53,448 nucleotides of DNA from a virus, in the IMG/VR virus record IMGVR_UViG_3300048591_001682, positions 1-53,448 of that record; one strand, 5' to 3'. This document shows, one piece after another, positions 5,739 to 15,640 of the stretch; positions within the stretch are counted from its first letter, which is position 1; each line of letters opens with the position of its first letter. The position numbers were made by a program, and so were the translations under genes. The notes under the pieces are model-generated. The model saw only the letters and a program-made list of their open reading frames with translations. It ran no database searches and was not told where the DNA came from.

Positions 5739-7172
5739 GTGACGCTCGGGATCGTCAAGCGCACCGAGGCGGAGTTCCAGCAGTGGCTGATGACGGAGCC
5801 AGGCTTCGTCACGGCGCTGATGGCGTACGACGACGAGCCCGTCGTCCTCGAGGCGTACCAGCGTGAGTTCCTCACCAACCGCTCGCGGTTCCGGTGGGTC
5901 AACAAGAGTCGTCAGGTCGGCTTCTCGTTCCTCTTCGCGCTCGAGGCGCTCGCCCGCTGCCACCTGCGCTCGAAGCACACGGCTGTCTTCGTCAGCTACA
6001 ACATGGATGACGCGAAGGAGAAGGTGCTCACCGCACGCCAGCTCCACGAGGAGCTTCCGCTCGTGTACCAGAAGCGGCTCGTCGTCGACTCGAAGACGGA
6101 GCTCGCGTTCGAGTCGAACGGCGCGACGAAGCGGCTCTCGCGCATCCTCTCGCACCCGTCGAAGGCACCGCGCGGCAAGAAGGGCGACGTCTACCTCGAC
6201 GAGCTCGCACACTACGTGAACGACCGCGAGGTGTACCGAGGCTCGACGGCGCTCATCCTCCGCAGCAACGGGCAACTCACCGGCTGCAGCACGCCGCTCG
6301 GGCGGCGCGGCATCTTCTGGGAGATCGCCAACGAAGAGCTGCGCAAGTATCCGCACCACACGCGGCAGCACGTGCCGTGGTGGCTGTGCCGCTTCTTCAC
6401 CGCCGACGTGAAGGCCGCCTCCGAGGTCGCCCTCGACATGCCGACGGAGGAGCGTGTCGAACGCTTCGGTCGACCGACGCTCATCGAGCAGTTCGACTCG
6501 CTGCCCATCGAGGACTTCCAGCAGGAGTTCGAAGGCAAGTTCGTCGACGAGACGTACAGCTTCTTTCCCTACGAACTGATCCTCCCATGCACCAACGACG
6601 ACCTGGTGCTCTACGACGAGCCCACCAGCGTGCGCACGCCCGAGGGCCGCATCGTCGCAGGTTTCGACGTCGGCCGAACGCGCGACCGCTCGGAGCTGGC
6701 GGTGTTCGAGGAGATCGAGGGTCGCTTCACGGCGCGCATGCTGCGTAGCTTCGAGGGGACACCGTTCGCCGAGCAGGAGGCCGAGCTGCGGAGGCTGCTG
6801 GGCACGCTGCCGGTCGCGCGGCTCTCGATCGACCGGAGCGGCATCGGCATGAACCTCGCCGAGAACCTGTCGCGCGACTTCCCGCAGGTCATCGGCGAGA
6901 ACTTCACCAACGAGTCGAAGGAGCGCTGGGCGACAGACTTCAAGATCGTTCTCCAGCGTCGCGATGTGACGCTGCCACGTGACCGCGAGCTGGTTGGACA
7001 GATCCACGCCATCAAGCGGCGCGTGCTCCCCTCAGGCAAGGTCAGCTTCGACGCCGAGCGCAACTCGCGCGGGCATGCGGACAAGTTCTGGGCGGTGGCG
7101 CTGGCGTGTCAGAAGGAGCGCACGGTGAGCGGCCCGCGCACCGGCGAGATCGGCGTGCGTGTGCTGGGGTGA
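5739..7172 (+). CDS. terL: Phage terminase large subunit (packaging ATPase-nuclease)
   Basis: About 477 residues. It drives ATP-dependent DNA packaging through the portal and cuts the concatemer. With the GTG start at 5739, a Walker A-like NKSRQVGFS lies at 55-63, Walker B VYLDE at 151-155, and the RNase H-fold nuclease begins at [11 protein letters not shown] (D310) with a second acidic site SIDRSG (D365). The frame is open back to 5619, but that part overlaps the divergent integrase; the GTG at 5739 has a GAGGGC upstream. The start is uncertain. No small terminase gene is visible. The RNA island separates it from the portal gene. Confidence 0.88.
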
Positions 7173-7267
7173 CCGTCGACTCTTGCAGAGAGCGACCGAA
7201 ATCGCGCTCATTGCAGCCCACGCCCATGACGCGACTCGCGCGCTTCAGCAGCGCTTGCCACGCGAAC

Positions 7268-7696
7268 CTACTTTCCACACAGCGCGAGCCCCTCCGCAAT
7301 CAACCGCCCCAACGACACCCGCATGTCCTCGCCGGAAAGCTCAGACAGTCGCTCGTCGCGTGCCCAGATCGGCTCGATACTCGGATAACGGCTGGCTGCC
7401 GTGCCATTCAGCGCGAAAGCCCGGCCATCCGAGGTGCGAAGGATGACGGAGTTGGGCCGTACGCAGAGCAACTCGCCTGCATCGACAGTCAATAGCCATT
7501 CATCGCCGTACTGAGCGCGGTGCACGTGTGAGCGGCTCTCGGAGTGGGATGCCAGGGGAGAAGTGCTTGAAGTCAAACGGGGCTTGGTGGGCGCACCTAT
7601 CAGACCGACGGCGAGATAGATCGCGCCACCGAGGATCGCCCACCTACCCATGCGAGCACTCCAGGAAGCTCCCGCCCACGTTCCTGTCGTGTTCAT
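7268..7696 (-). CDS. DUF2511 (YebY-like) membrane-anchored or secreted protein
   Basis: 142 residues. A hydrophobic segment (RWAILGGAIYLAVGLIGA, about 16-33) looks like a signal anchor. The C-terminal half carries the DUF2511 pattern: W-L-L-T-V, GELLCVRPNSV, G-R-A-FALNGTA, then I-PIW. YebY in enterobacteria is a small periplasmic protein of unclear role. The ATG at 7696 has AAAGGACAG upstream. It is convergent with terL and looks like accessory cargo on the opposite strand. Confidence 0.65.
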   Translation of the reverse strand: MNTTGTWAGASWSARMGRWAILGGAIYLAVGLIGAPTKPRLTSSTSPLASHSESRSHVHRAQYGDEWLLTVDAGELLCVRPNSVILRTSDGRAFALNGTAASRYPSIEPIWARDERLSELSGEDMRVSLGRLIAEGLALCGK

Positions 7697-8298
7697 CGTC
7701 TGTCCTTTCACCGCCGCTCGCGTGAGCACGTTGGTGACGGCAGCACTGTGACGCTTCCCGGTGCGGCGAACGCAAGCGTAAGGTTGAGCGAACCTTGGCA
7801 ATCTTCAGCAACCCTGTGCCGGCCGTGCTCCGGGTCTGCAGAGGCTCGCCTACTCCGGTCGGGTGGTGCTGGCGCGCTTCGCGCGTGCGCCGCCAACGGT
7901 GATGGGCGCAATGCCTATCCGCAGCGAGAACCCGATGTCGAACGACCCGCCCACCCCCTCCCAACGCCCACTGGGTCCGGAGCTCTTGGTGCACCGCGAA
8001 TGGCTGGCAGAGTTTCGTTAGAAACGACTCAGCCCCGGTCTTCACCCCAAGTCGATCAAGTTTATTTGTTTGATTCTCTTGACCCCGAACCTGGAGCAAT
8101 GTACAAAGTTCAAAGCTGGAGGACTTGGCGTCCTTCGCGATCGAGAACGAGTCATGTTGCGGCACAGCGAACATAAGAAAGCGCAGAGGCAAGCGTTGCT
8201 CGGGTGGTGCCCGAGCAATGACGCAAGCCCCGTGCTCTCCGTGCGTGCCCTGCCAGCGGCCACCACTGGCAATTTCGCGCGCCAGGAGGGCCTTCCCT
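7697..8298. other. About 600-bp gap upstream of the RNA island, no convincing gene
   Basis: Several short open frames exist on both strands but none has domain-like composition or a Shine-Dalgarno. Part of it (about 8035-8165) is AT-richer than the surroundings, a plausible place for a promoter of the tRNA array, but no specific promoter could be assigned. Confidence 0.4.
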
Positions 8299-8299
8299 A

Positions 8300-8340
8300 G
8301 GGCGGTTCGATCGTTCATCGAGTGACGAGTTCGACCGCCC
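8300..8340 (+). promoter_or_regulatory. Alternative hairpin overlapping the terminator (attenuator-like)
   Basis: GGGCGGTTCGA at 8300-8310 pairs with TCGACCGCCC at 8331-8340. The 3' arm is also the 5' arm of the terminator that follows, so the two hairpins are mutually exclusive. This resembles a transcription attenuator just ahead of the tRNA array. Confidence 0.4.
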
Positions 8341-8370
8341 CTGGCCACGCCACGGGCGGTTTTTCTTTTG
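8335..8370 (+). terminator. Rho-independent terminator ahead of the tRNA array
   Basis: CCGCCC at 8335-8340 pairs with GGGCGG at 8354-8359, followed directly by TTTTTCTTTTG. Its 5' arm can instead pair with 8300-8305. Confidence 0.6.
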
Positions 8371-8498
8371 TCTTTTCAGGCATTTTGGGGCTCCCAAGGG
8401 AGGCCCGAGTTCAAACGACAGCGAGCAGGATGTGCGGTTACGCAAGGGAGGAGTGATGGGACACCGAATGAAACCGGAGCCGACCATTCCTCACCAGC

Positions 8499-8574
8499 GG
8501 GGTCGTAGCTCAACAGGCAGAGCATCCGGCTTTTAACCGGGCGGTTGTGGGTTCGAGTCCCATAGGCCCCACCA
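8499..8574 (+). tRNA. tRNA-Lys(TTT)
   Basis: Acceptor GGGGTCG with AGGCCCC, D arm TAGCTCAACAGGCAGAGC, anticodon loop CTTTTAA, T loop TTCGAGT, encoded CCA. First tRNA of the array. Confidence 0.9.
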
Positions 8575-8575
8575 C

Positions 8576-8650
8576 GGATCCGTAGCTCAACAGGCAGAGC
8601 ACCCGGCTCTTAACCGAGGTGTTGGGGGTTCAATTCCCTCCGGGTCCACC
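8576..8650 (+). tRNA. tRNA-Lys(CTT)
   Basis: Acceptor GGATCCG/CGGGTCC, anticodon loop CTCTTAA, T loop TTCAATT. Discriminator A followed by CC then G, so the CCA is incomplete. One mismatch in the anticodon stem. Starts one base after the preceding CCA. Confidence 0.87.
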
Positions 8651-8651
8651 G

Positions 8652-8672
8652 CGCTTTCATTTCATGAAAGCG
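8652..8672 (+). other. Short hairpin after tRNA-Lys(CTT)
   Basis: CGCTTTCAT-TTC-ATGAAAGCG, nine perfect base pairs directly after the tRNA. It could be a processing or 3'-end signal. The following 60 bp are AT-rich and hold another hairpin (ATCAAAAC/GTTTTGAT). Confidence 0.4.
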
Positions 8673-8733
8673 AACAATATTGGTGCGTATTCAAACGTAC
8701 TAACGAGCGAAATCAAAACGCATTGTTTTGATA

Positions 8734-8808
8734 TTCGGGAGTCGTCCAGCGGCAGGACGCCTGGCTCTGACCCAGGTAACGGGGGTTCGAATCCCTCCTC
8801 CCGAACCA
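8734..8808 (+). tRNA. tRNA-Gln(CTG)
   Basis: Perfect acceptor TTCGGGA/TCCCGAA, anticodon stem CCTGG/CCAGG with loop CTCTGAC, T loop TTCGAAT, encoded CCA. Confidence 0.92.
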
Positions 8809-8825
8809 ACGTCGCTTGCAGCGAT

Positions 8826-8853
8826 CTTTGACAATCGAGAGAGACTTTTCGTG
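8826..8853 (+). repeat. Left copy of an inverted repeat bracketing most of the tRNA array
   Basis: CTTTGACAATCGAGAGAGA then CTTTTCGTG. The reverse complement recurs at 12811-12836 with a few changes. It contains a TTGACA-like hexamer and could be a promoter or regulator site. Confidence 0.55.
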
Positions 8854-8890
8854 CGGCGCGCTGGGTGTAGCGAGCCACGGCGCGCCGCAC
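8851..8890 (+). other. Long perfect hairpin followed by TTTT
   Basis: GTGCGGCGCGC at 8851-8861 pairs perfectly with GCGCGCCGCAC at 8880-8890, followed by ATCCTTTTG. This could be a terminator or processing signal between tRNA-Gln and tRNA-Asn. Confidence 0.45.
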
Positions 8891-8897
8891 ATCCTTT

Positions 8898-8972
8898 TGC
8901 ACGGTAGCTCAATGGTAGAGCGGCGACCTGTTAAGTCGACAAATGGAGGTTCGAGTCCTCCCTGTGCAGCCA
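8898..8972 (+). tRNA. tRNA-Asn(GTT)
   Basis: Acceptor TGCACGG/CTGTGCA, D arm TAGCTCAATGGTAGAGC, anticodon loop CTGTTAA, T loop TTCGAGT, discriminator G, encoded CCA. Confidence 0.9.
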
Positions 8973-8973
8973 A

Positions 8974-9032
8974 GGCGAATGCTGAAGGGACTACATCGAC
9001 CGCTAATCGACGTCTCTTCGTTCCTCGTCGCC
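8974..9032 (+). ncRNA. Candidate Y-like RNA 1: conserved basal stem with a small apical hairpin
   Basis: A 59-nt element two bases after tRNA-Asn. The 5' strand GGCGAATG-CTG-AAGGGAC pairs with the 3' strand GTCTCTT-CGTTC-...-TCGCC: AAGGGAC/GTCTCTT, GAATG/CGTTC and the terminal GGCGA/TCGCC. The apex is a 14-nt hairpin TCGA-CCGCTAA-TCGA. The same two strands (GGCGAATGC-N4-GGGACTACATC and GTCTCT-x-CGTTCCTCGTCGCC) bracket larger inserts at 9565 and, partly diverged, at 12274. Here the tRNA-like module is absent. Interpreted as a Ro60-binding Y RNA because a Ro60 gene lies in the same island; the binding itself is inference. Confidence 0.5.
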
Positions 9033-9038
9033 GTTGAT

Positions 9039-9107
9039 AGGTCGGGCGCTGGGACGCAGGCGGGCCTCCAAAACCTGCCGCGCGAGGTTCGATTCCTCGA
9101 CGACCTG
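9039..9107 (+). tRNA. Degenerate tRNA-Trp(CCA)-like gene
   Basis: Acceptor AGGTCGG/ACGACCT (six of seven pairs), anticodon stem CGGGC/ACCTG with loop CTCCAAA, a perfect T arm CGAGG-TTCGATT-CCTCG. The D arm is shortened to about 12 nt (GCG/CGC) and no CCA is encoded. It may be functional or decaying. Confidence 0.5.
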
Positions 9108-9116
9108 CTGAAACAT

Positions 9117-9184
9117 ATGTTCTGTGATCGCGATGCGCATGCACGTCTGAAGACGCACGCGCGCATCGCGAACGCAGACAACAT
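9117..9184 (+). other. 68-nt near-continuous hairpin between tRNA genes
   Basis: ATGTT pairs with AACAT, CTG with CAG, then ATCGCGATGCGC with GCGCATCGCGA, apex around GTC-TGAA-GAC. Not a tRNA. It could be a small structured RNA or a palindromic insertion. Confidence 0.45.
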
Positions 9185-9195
9185 GAGAACTCGCT

Positions 9196-9362
9196 GGGGC
9201 CGCGGTCCAGTTCGGAGTGGACGCCTGCTTGTCACGTAGGAGAGCGCGGGTTGACTAGGGTCCTACGGACCCGTCCTTCACCTGGAATCGTGCAGCTACG
9301 TGGACTGCGTCCACTTCGCCTCGCACGATTCCACGCGAAACCAAGTCCCGTCGGCCCCGCCA
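9196..9362 (+). tRNA. tRNA-Asp(GTC) gene interrupted in the T loop
   Basis: Perfect acceptor GGGGCCG/CGGCCCC, D stem GTCC/GGAC, anticodon stem CCTGC/GTAGG with loop TTGTCAC, encoded GCCA end. The T arm reads GCGGG-TT, then 89 extra bases (9253-9341), then CAAGT-CCCGT. Removing the insert restores a canonical T loop TTCAAGT. All other pairs are intact, so either the insert is recent or it is removed from the RNA. Confidence 0.85.
9253..9341 (+). mobile_element. Family A double-hairpin insert, copy 1
   Basis: 89 bp inserted between T55 and C56 of tRNA-Asp. It starts GACTAGGGTCC and ends CGCGAAAC, with a 5' hairpin GGGTCC/GGACCC and a 3' hairpin GGAATCGTGC/GCACGATTCC containing GTGGAC/GTCCAC. 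No target duplication. It is homologous to 10052-10141 and, inverted, to 10530-10620. It encodes no protein and fits a non-autonomous element. Confidence 0.75.
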
Positions 9363-9364
9363 AT

Positions 9365-9439
9365 GTCACGATAGCTCAGTGGGTAGAGCGCTCGCTTGAA
9401 GCCCGAGAGGCACTGGTTCAACTCCGGTTCGTGGCACCA
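9365..9439 (+). tRNA. tRNA-Phe(GAA)
   Basis: Acceptor GTCACGA/TCGTGGC, D arm TAGCTCAGTGGGTAGAGC, anticodon stem CTCGC/CCGAG with loop TTGAAGC, short variable loop, T loop TTCAACT, encoded CCA. A shifted reading gives TGA, but the short variable arm excludes Ser. Confidence 0.8.
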
Positions 9440-9479
9440 CGCTCCTTCGCAGCGTCATCGACGATGCAGGAGGGGCACT

Positions 9480-9551
9480 CAGGGTCATCGTCCAAGGAGG
9501 GCGCCCCGGTCTGGAGCCGGGTGGCGGTGGGTTCGATTCCCACGGCCCTGA
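9480..9551 (+). tRNA. tRNA-Pro(TGG) with C33
   Basis: Acceptor CAGGGTC/GGCCCTG with the C1-G72 pair typical of Pro, anticodon stem CCCGG/CCGGG, loop TCTGGAG, so position 33 is C rather than U. T loop TTCGATT. CCA not encoded (A then CGA). Confidence 0.8.
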
Positions 9552-9564
9552 CGAACGATTTTTT

Positions 9565-9694
9565 GGGCGAATGCAGTAGGGACTACATCGGCATTTAACC
9601 GCGTGGTCGCGGGTTCAACTCCCGCCGTTCATCCGCAAGGGTGCGCGTAGCTCAGTGGTAGAGCGCGTACGTGTCTCTGCGTTCCTCGTCGCCC
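9565..9694 (+). ncRNA. Candidate Y-like RNA 2 with a permuted tRNA-like module
   Basis: Basal stem GGGCGA/TCGCCC, GAATG/CGTTC and AGGGAC/GTCTCT as in the 8974 element. Between the strands is a tRNA body in permuted order: T arm GCGGG-TTCAACT-CCCGC, then an acceptor-like hairpin 9626-9647 closed by a GCAA tetraloop, then a canonical D arm TAGCTCAGTGGTAGAGC. The two ends of the molecule emerge where a tRNA has its anticodon stem (CGCG/CGCG). A closed acceptor means it cannot carry an amino acid. Bacterial YrlA RNAs are known to combine a Ro60-binding stem with a tRNA-mimicking module. A T run follows (9695-9701), so the stem may also terminate transcription. Confidence 0.6.
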
Positions 9695-9703
9695 ATTTTT
9701 TCT

Positions 9704-9778
9704 GGTGGCCGATCCCGAAGTGGTCGAGGGCCCCGGCTGTGACCCGGGGGTAAGGCGGTTCAAGTCCGCTCGGTCACC
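9704..9778 (+). tRNA. tRNA-His(GTG)
   Basis: Acceptor GTGGCCG/CGGTCAC with an extra G(-1) opposite C73, the histidine identity pair. D stem CCC/GGG, anticodon stem CCCGG/CCGGG with loop CTGTGAC, T loop TTCAAGT. CCA not encoded. Confidence 0.9.
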
Positions 9779-9785
9779 CTGCTTT

Positions 9786-9860
9786 CCGCCTGTCGTCCAA
9801 TGGTCAGGACTCCCGTCTGATATGCGGGCAACGATGGTTCGATTCCATCCAGGCGGACCA
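9786..9860 (+). tRNA. tRNA-Ile(GAT)
   Basis: Perfect acceptor CCGCCTG/CAGGCGG, D stem GTC/GAC, anticodon stem CCCGT/GCGGG with loop CTGATAT, T arm GATGG-TTCGATT-CCATC, encoded CCA. Confidence 0.88.
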
Positions 9861-9995
9861 CTCGCTCGGCGCGGAGATAGCGCGTGTTCGCGATATCTCT
9901 GCGGCCGTTTCGCCGGGCGGCGTGCGCTCGCGTGCACGCTGGAGCTCCGAGCTCGACGCCCGCGCACTCGCGTGCGTGCGGTTGGCAACCACCAT
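9861..9995 (+). other. 135-bp structured spacer without a tRNA
   Basis: Contains a strong hairpin at about 9871-9902 (GCGGAGATA.CGCG-tgtt-CGCG.TATCTCTGC) and a second at about 9917-9964 (CGGGCG/CGCCCG with inner GTGC/GCAC and GAGCTC palindromes). No tRNA fold or gene was found. Confidence 0.4.
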
Positions 9996-10162
9996 GGTCC
10001 GGTAGCTCAGTCAGGTAGAGCGTCTGTATGACATGCAGAAGGCCGCGGGTTGACTAGGGTCCTCCGGACCCGTCCTTCGCCCGGAATCGTGCAGCTGCGT
10101 GGACTCACGTCCACTTCGCTCCGCACGCTTCCACGCGAAACCGACGCCCGCCTGGACCACCA
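9996..10162 (+). tRNA. tRNA-Val(GAC) gene interrupted in the T loop
   Basis: Perfect acceptor GGTCCGG/CTGGACC, D arm TAGCTCAGTCAGGTAGAGC, anticodon stem TCTGT/GCAGA with loop ATGACAT, encoded ACCA. The T arm GCGGG-TT is split by 90 bp (10052-10141) before CGACG-CCCGC. Removing the insert restores the loop TTCGACG. Confidence 0.85.
10052..10141 (+). mobile_element. Family A double-hairpin insert, copy 2
   Basis: 90 bp with the same ends (GACTAGGG ... CGCGAAAC) and the same two hairpins as the 9253 copy, inserted at the same T55/C56 point of another tRNA. Differences fall mainly in loops and stem pairs. No target duplication, no coding capacity. Confidence 0.75.
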
Positions 10163-10166
10163 TCAC

Positions 10167-10239
10167 GGGGCTGTAGCTCAGCAGGGAGAGCGCTGTCGTG
10201 GCACGGCAGAGGCGGCGGGTTCGAGACCCGCCAGCTCCA
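10167..10239 (+). tRNA. tRNA-Ala(GGC)
   Basis: Acceptor GGGGCTG/CAGCTCC with the G3-U70 alanine identity pair, anticodon stem CTGTC/GGCAG with loop GTGGCAC, T loop TTCGAGA, discriminator A. CCA not encoded. Confidence 0.9.
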
Positions 10240-10247
10240 CAAACAAC

Positions 10248-10320
10248 GGGGAGGCATGTACCAAGGGGGCGAGCTGGCCCTGCAAGTCGGCTGCGGTGGG
10301 TTCGATTCCCATCCTCTCCA
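10248..10320 (+). tRNA. tRNA-Ala(TGC) with C33 and an odd D arm
   Basis: Acceptor GGGGAGG/CCTCTCC with G3-U70, extended anticodon stem AGCTGGC/GTCGGCT with loop CCTGCAA, so C33. The D arm is degenerate (TGTACCAAGGGGGCG). T loop TTCGATT. The tail reads ACCC. Confidence 0.72.
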
Positions 10321-10328
10321 CCCGTTTC

Positions 10329-10400
10329 GCGCCCGAAGTGTTTTCGGCGGCACCCCTGGCTTCCAACCAGGAGGGGCGGGTTCGAGTCCCGCCGGGCGCT
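10329..10400 (+). tRNA. tRNA-Gly(TCC)
   Basis: Perfect acceptor GCGCCCG/CGGGCGC, U73 as expected for Gly, anticodon stem CCTGG/CCAGG with loop CTTCCAA, T loop TTCGAGT. No encoded CCA. Confidence 0.88.
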
Positions 10401-10409
10401 CAAGTCATT

Positions 10410-10484
10410 ACCTCTGTGGTCCAACGGAAGGGCGTCGGTCTTCTAAACCGAAAGGTGGCGGTTCGAGTCCGTCCAGGGGTGCCA
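10410..10484 (+). tRNA. tRNA-Arg(TCT)
   Basis: Acceptor ACCTCTG/CAGGGGT, anticodon stem TCGGT/ACCGA with loop CTTCTAA, T loop TTCGAGT, discriminator G, encoded CCA. Confidence 0.9.
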
Positions 10485-10493
10485 TCGCTTTTT

Positions 10494-10660
10494 ACCCACG
10501 TAGCTCAACGGAAAGAGTCCCCGGCTTCGGTTTCGGGTGGAATCGTGCGCAGCGGAACGGACGACAAGTCCGTGGAGCCGCAGGATTCCGGCCGAAGGAC
10601 GGGTCCGCAGGACCCTAGTCAACCGGTGGGGTGGGGGTTCAAATCCCTCCGTGGGTGCCA
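10494..10660 (+). tRNA. tRNA-Arg(TCG) gene interrupted in the anticodon loop
   Basis: Perfect acceptor ACCCACG/CGTGGGT, D arm TAGCTCAACGGAAAGAGT, T loop TTCAAAT, encoded GCCA. The anticodon arm reads CCGG-CTTCG, then 91 extra bases (10530-10620), then AACCGG. Removing them gives loop CTTCGAA, anticodon TCG. The insert is family A in reverse orientation, so one element sits in both orientations in different tRNAs. Confidence 0.83.
10530..10620 (-). mobile_element. Family A double-hairpin insert, copy 3 (inverted)
   Basis: Read on the minus strand it begins GACTAGGGTCC and ends CACCCGAAAC like copies 1 and 2. The inner stem shows compensatory change (CGGAC/GTCCG against GTGGAC/GTCCAC). In element orientation its flanks are GGTT on the left and CGAA on the right, the same site as in the T loops, because the anticodon loop TTCGAACC is the complement of GGTTCGAA. 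Confidence 0.75.
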
Positions 10661-10662
10661 AT

Positions 10663-10740
10663 GTCCTCGTAGCTCAGTGGATAGAGCGCCGGCGTGCGAA
10701 GCCGGGACTGCCGGAGGTTCGACTCCTCCCGAGGACGCCA
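10663..10740 (+). tRNA. tRNA-Arg(GCG)
   Basis: Perfect acceptor GTCCTCG/CGAGGAC, D arm TAGCTCAGTGGATAGAGC, anticodon stem CCGGC/GCCGG with loop GTGCGAA, T loop TTCGACT, encoded GCCA. Confidence 0.9.
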
Positions 10741-10744
10741 TTTT

Positions 10745-10815
10745 CGCGGGGAGGGCCGGCGCCCAGCGAGGCCTCATAAGCCTCTGCCCGTCAGGTTCAA
10801 CTCCTGGCCCCGCAA
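10745..10815 (+). tRNA. Initiator-like tRNA-Met(CAT)
   Basis: Acceptor CGCGGGG/CCCCGCA has the C1-A72 mismatch that marks bacterial initiator tRNA. Anticodon stem GAGGC/GCCTC with loop CTCATAA, T loop TTCAACT, discriminator A. The stem lacks the full GGG/CCC initiator signature and CCA is not encoded. A phage initiator-like tRNA is uncommon. Confidence 0.75.
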
Positions 10816-10822
10816 CAGTATC

Positions 10823-10894
10823 CCCGCTGACGATCGGATCGACGCGCCTCTCATACGGGCGACGGCGGCGGTTCGACTCCGCCCGGCGGGACCA
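10823..10894 (+). tRNA. tRNA with CAT anticodon (elongator Met or Ile2)
   Basis: Acceptor CCCGCTG/CGGCGGG, anticodon stem CGCCT/GGGCG with loop CTCATAC, T arm GGCGG-TTCGACT-CCGCC, encoded ACCA. Whether C34 is converted to lysidine (Ile2) cannot be told by eye. Confidence 0.8.
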
Positions 10895-10895
10895 A

Positions 10896-10971
10896 CGGGA
10901 TGTGGCGCAGTTGGAAGCGCGCCGGTCTGGGGGACCGGAGGTCGCCGGTTCGAGTCCGGCTATCCCGACCA
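10896..10971 (+). tRNA. tRNA-Pro(GGG)
   Basis: Acceptor CGGGATG/TATCCCG with C1-G72, anticodon stem CCGGT/ACCGG with loop CTGGGGG, T loop TTCGAGT, encoded ACCA. Confidence 0.9.
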
Positions 10972-10977
10972 AACTTC

Positions 10978-11052
10978 GCGGGGTTCGCTCTCTGGGAGAG
11001 CGCCTGCCCTACAAGCAGGACGAGCTGGGTTCGATTCCCAGACCCCGTACCA
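10978..11052 (+). tRNA. tRNA-Val(TAC) with C33
   Basis: Acceptor GCGGGGT/ACCCCGT, D stem GCTCT/AGAGC, anticodon stem CCTGC/GCAGG with loop CCTACAA (C33), T arm CTGGG-TTCGATT-CCCAG, encoded ACCA. Confidence 0.85.
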
Positions 11053-11055
11053 AAA

Positions 11056-11142
11056 GCCCGGGTGACGGAACACTGGCAGACGTGCAGCGTTGAGAGCGCT
11101 GCGGGGCTCGTCCCCGTGCAGGTTCGAATCCTGTCCTGGGCA
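11056..11142 (+). tRNA. tRNA-Leu(GAG)
   Basis: Acceptor GCCCGGG/CCTGGGC, anticodon stem CAGCG/CGCTG with loop TTGAGAG, long variable arm CGGGG/CCCCG, T loop TTCGAAT. CCA not encoded. Confidence 0.87.
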
Positions 11143-11148
11143 CTGATC

Positions 11149-11234
11149 GCTCGCGTGGCGGAACGGGCAGACGCGGTCGGCTTAAGTCCGACTGCCCCTC
11201 GGCGGGCATGGGGGTCCGACTCCCTCCGCGAGCA
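11149..11234 (+). tRNA. tRNA-Leu(TAA) with T-loop TCCGACT
   Basis: Perfect acceptor GCTCGCG/CGCGAGC, anticodon stem GTCGG/CCGAC with loop CTTAAGT, long variable arm. The T loop has C at the near-invariant U55 position. No encoded CCA. Confidence 0.87.
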
Positions 11235-11240
11235 CACTTT

Positions 11241-11329
11241 GCCGGGATGGCGGAATCAGGCAGACGCGCTGGGCTTAGAACCCAGTGACCCTTGAGGTCG
11301 TGCAGGTTCGACTCCTGTTCCCGGTACCA
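11241..11329 (+). tRNA. tRNA-Leu(TAG)
   Basis: Acceptor GCCGGGA/TCCCGGT, anticodon stem CTGGG/CCCAG with loop CTTAGAA, long variable arm, T loop TTCGACT, encoded ACCA. Confidence 0.9.
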
Positions 11330-11334
11330 ACTTT

Positions 11335-11495
11335 GCGGACTTGGCGGAACTGGCAGACGCGCCTGACTCAAGCTCAGGTGAGCTCTCAGCTCATGGGGGT
11401 TCAAGGTGTCCCGCGGCGAACGCCGCAGGCACCTCGTTGTTGGTCAGCACGCCCCTCCGGAGCGTCCTGACCAACTGCGACTCCCCCCGTCCGCA
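11335..11495 (+). tRNA. tRNA-Leu(CAA) gene interrupted in the T loop
   Basis: Acceptor GCGGACT/CGTCCGC (six pairs), anticodon stem CCTGA/TCAGG with loop CTCAAGC, variable arm TGAGCT/AGCTCA. The T arm GGGGG-TT is split by about 76 bp (11402-11477) before CGACT-CCCCC. The insert is not family A but uses the same T55/C56 point. Confidence 0.82.
11402..11477 (+). mobile_element. Family B double-hairpin insert in a T loop
   Basis: 76 bp, starting CAAGGTG and ending CCAACTG. Hairpin 1 is AGGTG/CACCT enclosing GCGGC-gaac-GCCGC; hairpin 2 is GTTGGTCAG/CTGACCAAC. Different sequence from family A, same size class, architecture and insertion point. The boundary is ambiguous by one C. Confidence 0.6.
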
Positions 11496-11543
11496 CAATG
11501 GCTCTCATCGCTGAGGAGGTGAAGCGCCAAGGAGACTGTGACC

Positions 11544-12074
11544 ATGAGAACGCTCGTACTGGACCACGGCTACCAGCCGCACCGCATCGTCAGCTGGCAA
11601 CGCGCCGTCATCATGCTGTTCGATGGTAAGGTCGAGATCGTCGAAGAGTACGACGAGCCGATCCGCTCGGTGAGCATCACCATCAAGATGCCTGCCGTCG
11701 TACGCATGCTGCGCGCGGTGCGCGGTCGTAGACGCGCAATCAAGTTCTCGCGCATCAACGTCGCCACGCGAGACGACTTCCGCTGCCAGTACTGCGGCGG
11801 CAAGTTTCCCCTTCGTCGACTCACTCATGACCACGTCGTGCCCCGTTCCCAAGGCGGACGCACCGCGTGGGACAACATCGTGATGGCTTGCTACCCGTGC
11901 AACGAGGCCAAGAGAAATCGGACGCCTGAGCAAGCTGGAATGAAGCTGCGCAAGCAGCCCGTGAAGCCCTCGTGGCTTCCGGTGATCGCATTCCATGTCG
12001 ACGCGACGCACAGCATTCCCGATGCCTGGGCCAACTGGCTCTACTGGCACGGGGCGCTTGAGGAAGGCTCGTGA
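11544..12074 (+). CDS. HNH endonuclease inside the tRNA array
   Basis: A 176-residue HNH nuclease. The motif runs C81-x2-C84 (CQYCGGKF), D96-H97 (THDHVVPRSQGG), N111 (WDNIVMAC) and C116-x2-C119 (CYPCN), the zinc-stabilised beta-beta-alpha fold of COG1403-type nucleases. Such genes in phage tRNA clusters are often homing endonucleases, but it could also be a DNA-processing nuclease. The ATG at 11544 has AAGGAGA upstream; a GTG two codons earlier is an alternative. It is flanked by the interrupted tRNA-Leu(CAA) and tRNA-Pro(CGG). Confidence 0.85.
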   Translation: MRTLVLDHGYQPHRIVSWQRAVIMLFDGKVEIVEEYDEPIRSVSITIKMPAVVRMLRAVRGRRRAIKFSRINVATRDDFRCQYCGGKFPLRRLTHDHVVPRSQGGRTAWDNIVMACYPCNEAKRNRTPEQAGMKLRKQPVKPSWLPVIAFHVDATHSIPDAWANWLYWHGALEEGS

Positions 12075-12163
12075 GAGCAAGCCTCGCACCTTCCGACCGG
12101 ACGGCGGACCCGCGGTAGTCTTCGATGGCTCCGACGCCGCCGCCGTCCTGGTCGGAAACCTTT

Positions 12164-12240
12164 CGGAGCATAGCGCAGTCTGGAAGCGCGCCTGGTTCGG
12201 GACCAGGAGGTCGTGGGTTCAAATCCCACTGCTCCGACCA
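12164..12240 (+). tRNA. tRNA-Pro(CGG)
   Basis: Perfect acceptor CGGAGCA/TGCTCCG with C1-G72, anticodon stem CCTGG/CCAGG with loop TTCGGGA, T loop TTCAAAT, encoded ACCA. Confidence 0.92.
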
Positions 12241-12243
12241 GAT

Positions 12244-12271
12244 GGAGGTCGTTCTGACCTCCTTACTTTTT
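12244..12271 (+). terminator. Rho-independent terminator after tRNA-Pro(CGG)
   Basis: GGAGGTC at 12244-12250 pairs with GACCTCC at 12256-12262, followed by TTACTTTTTCC. It splits the array into two transcription units unless read through. Confidence 0.75.
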
Positions 12272-12273
12272 CC

Positions 12274-12396
12274 GCGGCGAATGCATGCGGGACTACATCA
12301 CCCTGGTGAACTCGGTTCGATTCCGAGCCGATCCTGATGGAGCGGTCGTCTAACGGTAGGACCCCAGGCAAACGTCTCGCGACGACTCGTCGCCGC
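12274..12396 (+). ncRNA. Candidate Y-like RNA 3 with a permuted tRNA-like module
   Basis: Basal stem GCGGCGA/TCGCCGC and GGGAC/GTCTC. The 5' strand contains GGCGAATGC-N4-GGGACTACATC, shared with the elements at 8974 and 9565. The body is a tRNA in permuted order: T arm CTCGG-TTCGATT-CCGAG, acceptor-like CCGATCC/GGAGCGG closed by a TGAT loop (one mismatch), D arm TCGTCTAACGGTAGGAC, and CCTGG/CCAGG at the anticodon-stem position joining it to the basal stem. The capped acceptor argues against a tRNA product and for a YrlA-like tRNA mimic bound by Ro60. Confidence 0.6.
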
Positions 12397-12400
12397 CTTT

Positions 12401-12553
12401 GGAAGGTCACGTGGCAGTGGTGCCACACCGGCTTCGAAACCCGGGGGCGTCATCGACGCAGAGGTTCATGGTTGATCGTTCGGCTCTGCCAAACGGTCAA
12501 CCATGGGATGCCTCGCGATGCTCGGACATCAGCGACTCCTCGGCCTTCCGCCA
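12401..12553 (+). tRNA. tRNA-Ser(CGA) gene interrupted in the T loop
   Basis: Acceptor GGAAGGT/GCCTTCC, anticodon loop TTCGAAA on stem CCGG/CCGG, long variable arm GCGTC/GACGC, encoded GCCA. The T arm GAGG-TT is split by 66 bp (12467-12532) before CGACT-CCTC. Confidence 0.78.
12467..12532 (+). mobile_element. Family C double-hairpin insert in a T loop
   Basis: 66 bp, starting CATGGTTGA and ending GACATCAG. Hairpin 1 is ATGGTTGA/TCAACCAT; a weaker second hairpin has ATG/CAT ends. It has the same T55/C56 insertion point as families A and B but no clear sequence identity to them. Confidence 0.55.
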
Positions 12554-12558
12554 TTCCA

Positions 12559-12645
12559 GGAGGACACAGTAACGGTGGTCGTCACGACCGGCTGCTACCC
12601 GGTTGGCGCGTTCGCGTCGAGGTTCGACTCCTCTGTCCTCCGCCA
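12559..12645 (+). tRNA. tRNA-Ser(GCT)
   Basis: Perfect acceptor GGAGGAC/GTCCTCC, anticodon stem ACCGG/CCGGT with loop CTGCTAC, long variable arm, T arm GAGG-TTCGACT-CCTC, encoded GCCA. The D arm is irregular. Confidence 0.87.
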
Positions 12646-12651
12646 ATGTTC

Positions 12652-12726
12652 GCGACCAAGGTGTTGACGGCTGCACGCTGCCCCGCCACGGCGGAAGCGC
12701 GGGTTCGATTCCCGCTGGTCGCTCCA
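12652..12726 (+). tRNA. tRNA-Gly(GCC) with C33
   Basis: Perfect acceptor GCGACCA/TGGTCGC, U73, D stem GTG/CAC, anticodon stem CTGCC/GGCGG with loop CCGCCAC (C33), T loop TTCGATT, encoded CCA. Confidence 0.83.
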
Positions 12727-12730
12727 TTCT

Positions 12731-12807
12731 GTCCCTGTCTTCTAGCTGGACAAGGATCCCGGGCCCTCAACCCGGAGACGGGGGTTCAACTCCCCCCAGT
12801 GACGCCA
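12731..12807 (+). tRNA. tRNA-Glu(CTC) with C33
   Basis: Acceptor GTCCCTG/CAGTGAC (six pairs), Glu-like D arm, anticodon stem CCGGG/CCCGG with loop CCCTCAA (C33), T arm GGGGG-TTCAACT-CCCCC, encoded GCCA. Confidence 0.8.
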
Positions 12808-12810
12808 CAG

Positions 12811-12836
12811 CACGAGTTCTCTCTCGATCGTCAAAG
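12811..12836 (-). repeat. Right copy of the inverted repeat bracketing the tRNA array
   Basis: On the minus strand this reads CTTTGACGATCGAGAGAGA then ACTCGTG, the inverted counterpart of 8826-8853. It lies just upstream of the Ro60 gene. Confidence 0.55.
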
Positions 12837-12868
12837 ACCGCTGCGCGCGAATACCTACGGAGATCACC

Positions 12869-14437
12869 ATGGTACTCAAGGCATTGTTCAAGAGCGCAGC
12901 TCGGTCCGCACCCAAGGCGACCAGCGTCAACCACGAGAACGCCCCGGCGTATGCGCTCGACTCGCGTACTGCGCTCGCGCAGCTCGCGGCGACCGGCTGC
13001 TTCGGAAGCACGTTCTACGTGACCGGCCAAGAGCAGCTCGACAAGGTGCTTGAGCACGCGGGTCGTTGTGACCCGGTGTTCGTGGCCAAGGTCGCTGTGT
13101 ACGCGCGTGAGCGTGGCTTCATGAAGGACATGCCGGCGGTGCTGCTCGCGCATCTCGCGACGCGGGGTGCGGAGGGCATCGCGGCCATGAAGGCGGCGTT
13201 CCCGCGCGTGGTCAACAACGGACGAATGCTTCGTGCGTACGTCCAGGTCATTCGCTCCGGGCAGCTGGGTCGAAAGTCCTTGGGTACGGCGCCGAAGAAG
13301 GTCGTGCAGCGTTGGCTTGGCGCGCGCTCGGCGATGAGCCTGTTCTCAGACTCGGTCGGAAACGATCCGTCACTCGCTGATGTGATCAAGATGGTCCACC
13401 CCACGCCGACCTCGGACGAGCAGCGGGCGATGTACGGCTACCTGCTTGGTAAGCCCTACGACGTCGAGAAGCTTCCGTACACCGTGCGGTCGTACGAGGC
13501 CTGGAAGCGCGGCGAGGGTGATGGTTCGGTGCCGAAGGTGCCGAGTCTGATGCTCGCCGGACTGCCACTGGGCAAGAAGGAGTGGACGGAGATCGCAAAG
13601 CACGCACGTTGGCACGAGACGCGAATGAACCTCAACACGTACCAACGCCACGGCGTCTTCGACGACGAGGCGTTGGTGAAGCTCATCGCGTCGCGTCTCG
13701 CAGACAAGGATGAGGTGCGGGCGGCCAAGGTCTTCCCATACCAACTCTTGGTGGCCTGGAAGACGGCGTCGGAAGTCCCGGCCCTGATCCAGAACGCCCT
13801 GCAAGAGGCCATGGAGCACTCACTCGAGAACATCCCGGAGATCGACGGTCAGGTGGTCATCTGCCCAGACGTCTCCGGCTCCATGCAGAGCGCGGTGACG
13901 GGCTACCGCAAGGGCGCCACTAGCACGGTGCGATGCGTGGACGTCGCGGCGATGATCTCGGCGGCGCTCTTGCGGAAGAGCCCGTTGGCGCGCGTCATCC
14001 CCTTCGAGCAGGACGTTCGCTCTATCCGACTCAACCCTCAGGACTCAGTCATGACCCTCTCACAGCAGCTCGCATCGATCGGCGGTGGCGGAACCAGCTG
14101 CTCGGCGCCGCTGTCGCTCCTGAACAAGGAGAAGGCGAAGGTCGACGCCGTGATCTACGTCTCTGACAACGAGTCGTGGGTCGATGCCCAAGACAAGAGC
14201 GGCTACCAGCGCGGCACCGCGATAATGGAGGAGTGGACCAAGCTCCGTCAGCGCAACCCGCAGGCGAAGCTCGTATGCGTTGACCTTACTCCCAACACCC
14301 ACAAGCAGGCGATCGATCGGCCGGACATTCTCAACGTCGGGGGCTTCTCCGACGCGGTGTTCGACGTGACCGCCCAGTTCATCAAGGCCGAGGGCCAGGC
14401 ACCTTGGGCTGAGGTGATCGACCGAACTGAACTGTAA
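12869..14437 (+). CDS. Ro60-family TROVE-domain RNA-binding protein
   Basis: 522 residues. Ro60 (Rsr in bacteria) is a HEAT-repeat ring that binds misfolded RNAs in its cavity and Y RNAs on its outer face, with a C-terminal von Willebrand A domain. Residues about 15-320 show the helical TROVE repeats (for example ALAQLAATGCF, FVAKVAVYARERG, KDMPAVLLAHLA). The vWA MIDAS motif DVSGSM is at 334-339, with later parts around GGGGTSCSAPL and VIYVSDNESW. ACGGAGAT lies upstream of the ATG. It sits between tRNA-Glu(CTC) and tRNA-Thr(CGT), in an island with three Y-RNA-like elements. Ro proteins are known from some mycobacteriophages with large tRNA sets. Confidence 0.92.
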   Translation: MVLKALFKSAARSAPKATSVNHENAPAYALDSRTALAQLAATGCFGSTFYVTGQEQLDKVLEHAGRCDPVFVAKVAVYARERGFMKDMPAVLLAHLATRGAEGIAAMKAAFPRVVNNGRMLRAYVQVIRSGQLGRKSLGTAPKKVVQRWLGARSAMSLFSDSVGNDPSLADVIKMVHPTPTSDEQRAMYGYLLGKPYDVEKLPYTVRSYEAWKRGEGDGSVPKVPSLMLAGLPLGKKEWTEIAKHARWHETRMNLNTYQRHGVFDDEALVKLIASRLADKDEVRAAKVFPYQLLVAWKTASEVPALIQNALQEAMEHSLENIPEIDGQVVICPDVSGSMQSAVTGYRKGATSTVRCVDVAAMISAALLRKSPLARVIPFEQDVRSIRLNPQDSVMTLSQQLASIGGGGTSCSAPLSLLNKEKAKVDAVIYVSDNESWVDAQDKSGYQRGTAIMEEWTKLRQRNPQAKLVCVDLTPNTHKQAIDRPDILNVGGFSDAVFDVTAQFIKAEGQAPWAEVIDRTEL

Positions 14438-14441
14438 ACGG

Positions 14442-14460
14442 GGGCGGACGTGCGCCGCCC
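14442..14460 (+). terminator. GC-rich hairpin after the Ro60 gene
   Basis: GGGCGG-acgtgcg-CCGCCC immediately after the stop codon, without a T run. It may be a 3'-end or processing hairpin rather than a true terminator. Confidence 0.4.
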
Positions 14461-14499
14461 AAATGCCGGCGGGGCCGTCAAACCCTTGTCGCGTTCTAC

Positions 14500-14574
14500 G
14501 CTCTCGATGCGTTGGTGGTGACGCACCTGTCTCGTAATCAGGAGAACGGGGTTCGATTCCCCGCGAGAGCTCCA
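14500..14574 (+). tRNA. tRNA-Thr(CGT)
   Basis: Perfect acceptor GCTCTCG/CGAGAGC, anticodon stem CCTGT/TCAGG (one mismatch) with loop CTCGTAA, T loop TTCGATT, encoded TCCA. Confidence 0.87.
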
Positions 14575-14575
14575 T

Positions 14576-14654
14576 GCCGCCGAAGACTCTGATGGTTCGG
14601 GTCGCCAGGTTTTCACCCTGGAGGTCGCCGGTTCGATTCCGGTCGGCGGTGCCA
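14576..14654 (+). tRNA. tRNA-Glu(TTC)
   Basis: Acceptor GCCGCCG/CGGCGGT, D stem GACT/GGTC, anticodon stem CCAGG/CCTGG with loop TTTTCAC, T loop TTCGATT, encoded GCCA. Confidence 0.88.
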
Positions 14655-14657
14655 CAA

Positions 14658-14732
14658 TCGGGGCTGGTCTAACGGCAGGATGCCGGACTTTGAATCCGTG
14701 CGGTGGGGGTTCGAATCCCCCGCCCCGAACCA
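14658..14732 (+). tRNA. tRNA-Gln(TTG)
   Basis: Perfect acceptor TCGGGGC/GCCCCGA, anticodon loop CTTTGAA, T arm GGGGG-TTCGAAT-CCCCC, encoded ACCA. Last tRNA of the island. Confidence 0.88.
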
Positions 14733-14823
14733 TATGCGTCACGGGGGCGCCGGCGGCTGCGAACGGGGCGCGCGAGGAGCGCCGCGCGCACGGTCGCGCT
14801 CGCTGCTTGGCAACGACGTGAGG

Positions 14824-15267
14824 CTACTCGTTGATGGCTTCGATGCCCTGTGCAGCAAGCCGCGCAAGCCCGTCCTTCATCGCTTGGAGCTGCTCGGGCG
14901 CGTGGCCCTTCCAGTCGATGATCTCGCCGATCACCCGGATCGGCGCCCGCGTGCGGAAGGACCTCGTCGGGTTCCCGGGGAACTTCTTGTCGGTGAGGTT
15001 CGGGTCGTCTTCGATCGGCCCCGAGGGTTCGACGATGTAGATGCGGCCTGGCCCGTCACCGATCGCCAGCTCGGCGCCCCATGTGGCGGCGTCCAGGGTG
15101 CCCGTCAGGTACACGAAGGCGGCGTTCTTCCTCTCGCCATAGTTGGACGAGCGACCGGCCTCGATCAGGTCGCCTGGCTTCAGGTCGGCCTTCGTGCCGT
15201 GGAGGTAGCCCGGCGTCCCGGAGCTGTCCGTCCACACCTTGAAGGGCTCGGGTGTCGGCATCGTCAT
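14824..15267 (-). CDS. arr: Rifampin ADP-ribosyltransferase (Arr family)
   Basis: 147 residues, full family length. Arr transfers ADP-ribose from NAD+ to rifamycins; some homologues are thought to act on RNA. Recognised by GYLHGTKADLKPGDLI, SNYGERKNAAFVYLT, GAELAIGDG, IYIVEPSGPIEDDPNLTDKK, FPGNPTRSFR and GEIIDWKG. It lies on the minus strand between the last tRNA and the first structural operon, so it reads as accessory cargo. The ATG at 15267 is used; an in-frame ATG two codons later is possible. Confidence 0.9.
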   Translation of the reverse strand: MTMPTPEPFKVWTDSSGTPGYLHGTKADLKPGDLIEAGRSSNYGERKNAAFVYLTGTLDAATWGAELAIGDGPGRIYIVEPSGPIEDDPNLTDKKFPGNPTRSFRTRAPIRVIGEIIDWKGHAPEQLQAMKDGLARLAAQGIEAINE

Positions 15268-15298
15268 CGGCAGTCACTGTACGCCGAGCCTCACTGAC

Positions 15299-15330
15299 TG
15301 TCCCCGCCATTCGCGCCCCGAGGCTTTGCC
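15299..15330 (+). promoter_or_regulatory. Two-box phage promoter element, site 1
   Basis: TGTCCCC at 15299 and GCTTTGCC at 15323, box starts 24 bp apart. It follows the arr cargo gene and precedes the portal operon. One of nine copies of NGTCCCC-N17/18-GCTTTGCC in the window. Confidence 0.6.
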
Positions 15331-15434
15331 CTTGCCGGAGGCGAGGCGCGCGGTCCAGCTGCTCGGTGCCCAGGTGGACTGCCTCCTCGCAGGCTGGCCA
15401 AGCGCCTCGCCTCCGCTGATTCGCGGAGTCCACC

Positions 15435-15640
15435 ATGCGGCGTACGCTCACGACCTTCGTCATCCCGGCAGGCAAGCCTGCGGGCGCTCCGCCCGAGCCT
15501 GGACCGCAAGTCGAGCTCGAAGCGCCCACCGAGGACGGGCTCCTGGCCGCCGCGCATAGCGCAATCGCCGAGCGCGGGCTGCGGCTGCGCTCCATGTCGT
15601 TCACTCCGACGGGGCTCGTCGCCTACGCGGAGGCGGCCGG

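Follow-up and report, generated by a model that had tools for sequence, protein, structure and literature searches.

Two-hairpin inserts in the tRNA genes of a phage

The window analysed here is the whole stretch of 53,448 nucleotides of the IMG/VR virus record IMGVR_UViG_3300048591_001682 (positions 1 to 53,448). It belongs to a tailed phage (terminase, portal and Mu-F-like head protein), and between the terminase and the portal (7172-15600) it carries a tRNA array together with an HNH endonuclease gene and a Ro gene. Three tRNA genes of this array, those for Asp, Val and Arg(TCG), are interrupted by copies of a short element that we designate type A1 (Table 1). A preliminary description had given the coordinates of the three copies exactly, including the inverted orientation of the third in tRNA-Arg(TCG). 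Pairwise identity among them is 80–90%, and each folds into a pair of adjacent hairpins in which compensatory changes occur. Hairpin 1 has the form GAC-TA-GGGTCC NNN GGACCC-GTC, in which TA is a two-base bulge, and the long hairpin 2 follows directly. The window contains the string GACTAGGGTCC exactly three times, phages, plasmids and IMG/VR searched for the element gave chance matches only (those in IMG/VR lying within coding sequence, L005 and L268), and a pattern scan of genome_contigs gave no convincing match; the threefold match in the window is therefore not due to chance.

With the insertion point marked by a caret, the junctions in tRNA-Asp and tRNA-Val read GCGGGTT^...^CAAGTCCCG and GCGGGTT^...^CGACGCCCG, which places the cut between T55 and C56, as the preliminary description had stated. 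It was also right that no target duplication accompanies the three copies. The target in tRNA-Arg(TCG), read on the bottom strand, is CGGTT^CGAAG, with a 7-nt loop TT^CGAAG on a stem closed by G-C, so that the site of the inverted copy mimics a T arm. When the exons are joined, all three genes (3/3) yield a tRNA recognised by ARAGORN, and in the case of tRNA-Arg(TCG) an Rfam tRNA match spans the insert (40.5 bits).

Table 1. Elements, split tRNA genes and accompanying features of the window
Feature	Position	Strand	Remarks
A1 two-hairpin element	9253-9341	+	89 nt; T loop of tRNA-Asp(GTC), after T55
A1 element	10052-10141	+	90 nt; T loop of tRNA-Val(GAC), after T55
A1 element, inverted	10530-10620	-	91 nt; anticodon loop of tRNA-Arg(TCG), after G36
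tRNA-Asp(GTC)	5' exon 9196-9252, 3' exon 9342-9362	+	ARAGORN on joined exons
tRNA-Val(GAC)	5' exon 9996-10051, 3' exon 10142-10162	+	ARAGORN on joined exons
tRNA-Arg(TCG)	5' exon 10494-10529, 3' exon 10621-10660	+	ARAGORN on joined exons
Double-hairpin insert, unrelated sequence	11402-11477	+	76 nt; T loop of tRNA-Leu(CAA), exons 11335-11401 and 11478-11496
Double-hairpin insert, unrelated sequence	12467-12532	+	66 nt; T loop of tRNA-Ser(CGA), exons 12401-12466 and 12533-12553
tRNA array	8499-14732	+	26 intact tRNA genes (ARAGORN) plus 5 split
HNH endonuclease gene	11538-12074	+	Pfam HNH_5, 1e-15; orthologues in synteny, each following Leu-CAA, in arrays A, B and C (see text)
Ro60/TROVE RNA-binding protein gene	12869-14437	+	a relative of the Ro proteins encoded in RtcR-RtcB RNA-repair operons
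Short YrlA-like RNA, apparently without tRNA-like module	8972-9037	+	RF02553, 26.5 bits, E 0.019
YrlA-like Y RNA	9564-9698	+	RF02553, 61.9 bits, E 1.2e-12, below gathering score of 69; probably part of a second family of the preliminary description
YrlA-like Y RNA	12274-12399	+	RF02553, 55.3 bits, E 9.1e-11, below gathering score of 69

Related copies in two soil bacteria

Genome G265 emerged from a nucleotide search covering 379 genomes of the Nannocystis phylum (Myxococcota), and G415 from a pattern search of the order to which G265 belongs (184 genomes, among them G001 and G002, from a Myxococcales and a Sandaracinaceae metagenome-assembled genome, respectively); the reversed-pattern control for the latter search gave zero everywhere. 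Both are soil bacteria with genomes of 8–11 Mb. They harbour three orthologous arrays, A (G265 contig C469), B (G265 contig C165, partial) and C (G415 contig C11), which share with the phage array the order of the tRNA genes and the position of the HNH gene after tRNA-Leu(CAA). The curated set of 21 copies comprises the three of the window and 18 in these arrays. Fourteen of them belong to a shorter type, A2, of 67–69 nt, which is the usual form in T loops, and every one lies in sense orientation in a T loop, a Gln-like gene and a Ser fragment being counted: Tyr, Val, Ile-TAT, Leu-TAA, Leu-CAA and Ser-TGA in array A, Ser-CGA and Glu-TTC in array B, and Lys-TTT, Arg-CCT, Ile-TAT, Met, the Gln-like gene and the Ser fragment in array C. 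Type A1 (84–91 nt) is found in sense only in the T loops of Asp and Val in the window; besides the copy in the anticodon loop of tRNA-Arg, inverted A1 copies occur in the D loops of Tyr and Leu-AAG in array A and of Arg-TCT in array C, and in one spacer of array C. A weaker model match (43 bits) adjoins the Thr gene of array A.

The preliminary description had proposed GGTT as the target. This is borne out in part, for sites in tRNA loops, in either orientation: (G/A)GTT^ forms the left flank of the A1 copies of the window and of two A1 copies in D loops. Most A2 copies and one A1 copy show GGT/TGT followed by G, and the boundaries in D loops are ambiguous (extra bases at the right end). An integron attC site was considered and dropped by eye, as the boundaries do not fit G^TTRRRY.

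Insert-free orthologues are available for Tyr, Val/Ile, Leu-AAG, Leu-CAA, Ser, Lys-TTT, Arg-TCT, Met and Glu-TTC. In one precise case GAAGGTTCAACTCCTTC of G415 (array C) corresponds to GAAGGT[69 nt]TCAACTCCTTC of G265 (array A), and the array genes for Asp, Tyr, Phe and others are uninterrupted in genomes G414 and G492. Because orthologous tRNAs hold such precise empty sites, the element either moves or is cleanly lost. A search of related genomes for copies and empty sites had been suggested at the outset, with homologues always present at the same positions named as the finding that would undo a mobile element; what the search returned was the 18 further copies and the empty sites.

When the complete G265 and G415 genomes were searched for exact patterns, the element turned up in tRNA arrays only; it is mobile and, in these two genomes, confined to stress-type tRNA arrays. 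A covariance model of A2 matched the window and the G265 and G415 arrays alone among 38 loci (728 kb), and in 318 Polyangia genomes and the 379-genome phylum sample it added only copies within repeats of G528 and one weak match in G118. The repeats in question, which resemble miniature inverted-repeat transposable elements (MITEs), are ~250–300 bp long, have terminal inverted repeats, lie outside tRNAs in G132 (L217-L239, 14 copies) and G528 (L271, L275), and contain the hairpin-1 motif GAC-TA-GG. This module may represent a copy of the element that landed in a MITE, or the element and the MITE may have a building block in common. A detector of T-loop splits was positive for the window alone among tRNA-bearing Ro loci; four weak candidates elsewhere (L107, L126, L151 and L157) were set aside as they looked like chance joins.

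Three further observations concern these arrays. The tRNA-Phe of G265 (L211 7553-7682) has an apparent insert of ~50 nt, of another kind, in its variable region. The G265 counterpart (L211 ~7340-7490) of the Ile(GAT)-type tRNA of G415 (L240 5578-5651) has the anticodon GAC (Val) and is also split. After an intact Ser(CGA) gene of G415 comes a 3' piece of a Ser T arm that retains the element (L240 3153-3219), perhaps the trace of a loss by recombination.

Conserved hairpins and conserved exons

The preliminary description had characterised the element as non-coding with a hairpin near each end, and two covarying hairpins were indeed found. In A2, 95.6% of the cells are paired and seven pairs show changes on both sides, a result matched by none of 500 shuffles; shifting the partner by one column lowers the pairing to 45–51%. 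The foot of hairpin 1 varies between AAC/GTT, GAC/GTC and GCC/GGC, and one position of hairpin 2 presents all four Watson-Crick types, while the TA bulge is invariant across the curated set. Hairpin 2 of A1 is 95.2% paired, with five double-change pairs (1/500 shuffles).

Removal of the inserts raises the number of tRNA genes recognised by ARAGORN from 26 to 31 in the window, from 23 to 30 in array A, from 8 to 10 in array B and from 26 to 30 in array C, and restores 18 clean tRNA genes in total. Standard tRNA finders miss most of the split genes, and the arrays thus appear poorer in tRNAs than they are. Stem pairs are kept in 310 of 323 cases (96.0%) in split genes and in 1349 of 1377 (98.0%) in intact ones. 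Between arrays A and C, tRNA pairs with at least one split member are 82–94% identical and intact pairs 83–100%, two mis-assigned tRNA pairs being omitted from the comparison. Identity at fourfold-degenerate sites of the HNH gene is 42% between A and C and 36% between A and B. Arrays A and B each have a split Ser gene, with exons that are 94% identical and anticodons that differ (TGA and CGA), and Ile(TAT), split in A and C, is 93% identical. As the exons are conserved over a saturated synonymous distance, the split tRNAs are unlikely to be dead genes, barring gene conversion or recent transfer; judged from these comparisons, a "dead tRNA" reading fits poorly. Decayed neighbours do occur in G415, namely a Gln gene whose body is degenerate, a Leu-TAA gene that is truncated, and a Ser fragment.

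The bases at the junctions are also informative. In all 14 A2 copies a T stands immediately before CRA, and the base to the left of the insert, where T55 would originally have stood, is G in eight, T in five and A in one. In the window copies T55 precedes the insert and no additional T follows it; joining again gives TTCRA. A drifting left base combined with a constant right T is expected if, on splicing, the 5' side contributes T54 to the T loop and the 3' side T55.

A possible class of spliced tRNA inserts

On this sequence evidence, there seems to us an even chance that the inserts are mobile, non-coding, two-hairpin elements which settle at the apices of tRNA hairpin loops and behave like introns. 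Insertion would take place mostly between T54/T55 and C56, at the apex of the T loop; the insert would be cut from the precursor RNA and the halves joined into a clean TTCRA T loop, most simply by RNA ligation of the RtcB type. The bacterial arrays are situated in RNA-repair islands, and RtcB is proposed as the ligase because it is encoded near the G265 and G415 arrays along with RtcR, RlaP, KptA or Ro: an RtcB gene lies ~8–12 kb from arrays A and C, RtcR and RlaP accompany array B, RlaP and KptA/Tpt1 accompany array C (RlaP, RtcR and KptA by Pfam), and Ro is present in both B and C. RtcB is common in bacteria, where its natural substrates are debated. More tentatively, and with rather less than even confidence, we suggest that the elements constitute a new class of mobile tRNA intron in bacteria and phages, 67–91 nt long and non-catalytic, with two covarying hairpins, situated at T-loop positions 54–56, excised by a nuclease and sealed by RtcB in stress tRNA arrays. 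If this were true, bacterial RtcB would gain a role in tRNA splicing, and the bacterial RNA-repair system would have a concrete tRNA-splicing substrate on which that role is directly testable.

Several observations weigh against splicing. Divergence is slightly greater in the split tRNAs than in the intact ones (~0.89 versus 0.93), and the curated copies and restored tRNAs, having been picked by eye and with ARAGORN, favour well-formed cases. G-U pairs number 6 among 520 minimum-free-energy pairs in all elements and 0 among 301 in A2, compared with 203 of 2344 in tRNAs from these arrays; such a near absence is odd for RNA and hints at a constraint on the hairpins at the level of DNA or of both strands. 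Inverted copies would demand machinery that is blind to strand. Given the mutual resemblance of the A2 copies, inserts shared between arrays could reflect gene conversion instead of inheritance. As a means of spread within one array, conversion between its similar T arms could serve for the T-loop type, but it would not account for those copies that lie inverted in D and anticodon loops. No RtcB gene was found in the window record. Since arrays or operons free of inserts can also have RtcB, RtcR and Ro beside them, the repair-gene context is permissive and not diagnostic.

The near absence of G-U pairs would be natural for a MITE-like, hairpin-ended DNA element that is moved in trans by some recombinase to GGTT^C targets and destroys the tRNA, the damage being tolerated as the tRNAs of the array are dispensable. 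The two orientations, the choice of T, D and anticodon loops as well as one intergenic site, the hairpin-1 motif within dispersed repeats of G132 and G528, and the decayed neighbours in G415 all speak for this alternative, which we consider unlikely though it deserves to be taken seriously. It does not explain why the exons of split genes have been conserved across a saturated synonymous distance, why G265 and G415 lack exact-pattern matches outside the arrays when GGTT is everywhere, or why the A2 copies in tRNAs are uniformly sense, in T loops and of near-constant length, and no transposase is linked to the element. The same facts bear on the more specific assignment to IS200/IS605 made in the preliminary description. 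Non-autonomous IS200/IS605 derivatives and other MITEs share with our element terminal hairpins, a lack of coding capacity, for A1 the absence of an obvious target duplication, and possibly a fixed short target. However, there is no Y1 transposase near any copy (none in the window, only a sub-threshold match in G265, and eight in G415), no dispersal at GGTT sites in G265 and G415, and no obvious guide sequence: hairpin 1 of A1 begins at the first base of the element and leaves no obvious room for one on the left. The assignment was not upheld, and since the split tRNAs are conserved like functional genes, intron splicing, which the preliminary description had named as a finding that would refute its proposal, appears the better-supported of the two.

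The insert might also behave like an rRNA intervening sequence, being cut by an RNase III-type activity without ligation or kept as an expansion, with the tRNA working nicked or enlarged. Because of the contacts that the T loop makes with the D loop, and the T arm with EF-Tu, a tRNA whose T loop is nicked or enlarged should function poorly. The intervening sequences of rRNA and the expansion segments of 5S rRNA (PMC7812874) have the same anatomy of short hairpins with conserved flanks at loop apices, and occur sporadically in structural RNA genes. In contrast to these, our element lies in tRNA, several copies per array sit at one fixed loop site, the junction restores TTCRA, and ligase genes are found in the same islands. 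The T-loop contacts and these ligase genes make a nicked or enlarged tRNA improbable. A still more remote explanation is that the inserts stay in the RNA as parts of purposeful chimeras, such as hybrids of tRNA and Ro ligand or decoys for tRNA-cleaving toxins. The strong conservation of the insert sequences would suit such chimeras, as would the Ro60 gene and the three YrlA-like RNAs that lie among the tRNA genes of the window; the empty sites in orthologues, the inverted copies and differing loops, and the lack of any YrlA match overlapping the inserts in the window would not.

Relation to known introns and to stress-type tRNA loci

Among open-licence papers we found no description of T-loop inserts of this kind or of this element. 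Protein-spliced tRNA introns occur in archaea and eukaryotes, and to our knowledge the known tRNA introns of bacteria are self-splicing group I introns. Those in bacterial and phage tRNA genes (PMC3984707) resemble the element in being mobile, in interrupting tRNA genes with intact exons and in having empty sites in relatives. The element differs in that its 67–91 nt are too few for a ribozyme core, in its T-loop site and in its two side-by-side hairpins, and Rfam models of group I and group II introns gave no match in 8400-14800 at E-values up to 10. Archaeal bulge-helix-bulge introns come close to the proposed splicing, being short protein-spliced inserts, sometimes in the T loop, that are ligated by RtcB. 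They differ from the element, which is found in bacterial and phage hosts, in both orientations and without a single hairpin closing the insert; a bulge-helix-bulge across both junctions was not seen, as the insert folds into separate 5' and 3' hairpins, although no dedicated search for the motif was run.

The setting has closer parallels. The long trn operon of Anabaena is induced by stress, and the TrcR regulon lists an HNH gene, rtcB and slipin (PMC10272220); the RtcR RNA-repair operon is regulated by damaged tRNAs, and operons of this kind encode Ro, Y RNAs and RtcB (PMC7790460). The loci of the element thus share with these operons a host context of tRNA array, HNH, rtcB, Ro and Y RNAs. 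Literature searches on stress tRNA operons and RtcR operons turned up no tRNA-splitting inserts, and the element is an addition to a known kind of locus, the stress tRNA array or RNA-repair operon.

Other features of the phage array

The preliminary description overlooked the two inserts of unrelated sequence in tRNA-Leu(CAA) and tRNA-Ser(CGA), whose T-loop position is identical to the A1 site. The closest phage relatives (L006-L029), one of which (L028) has a terminase 96% identical at the protein level, have no tRNA array; the array between terminase and portal is therefore cargo, and for the same reason these phages are a test of the cargo only, not of the element. Homologues of the HNH protein are mostly encoded outside tRNA arrays, so that the HNH gene is not diagnostic. 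The Ro protein of the window is 53% identical to that of rtcR-Ro-rtcB operons on Rhizobium plasmids.

YrlA is a Y RNA with a tRNA-like domain, and several YrlA-like sequences are visible in the G415 array as well. Strong inverted repeats occupy spacers between tRNA genes of the window (9114-9185 and 9861-9995). Among phage records, OR845705.1 and OR851267.1 are short Escherichia/Salmonella entries with a Ro gene, the former containing a Ro-Y RNA-RtcB operon and looking like host DNA.

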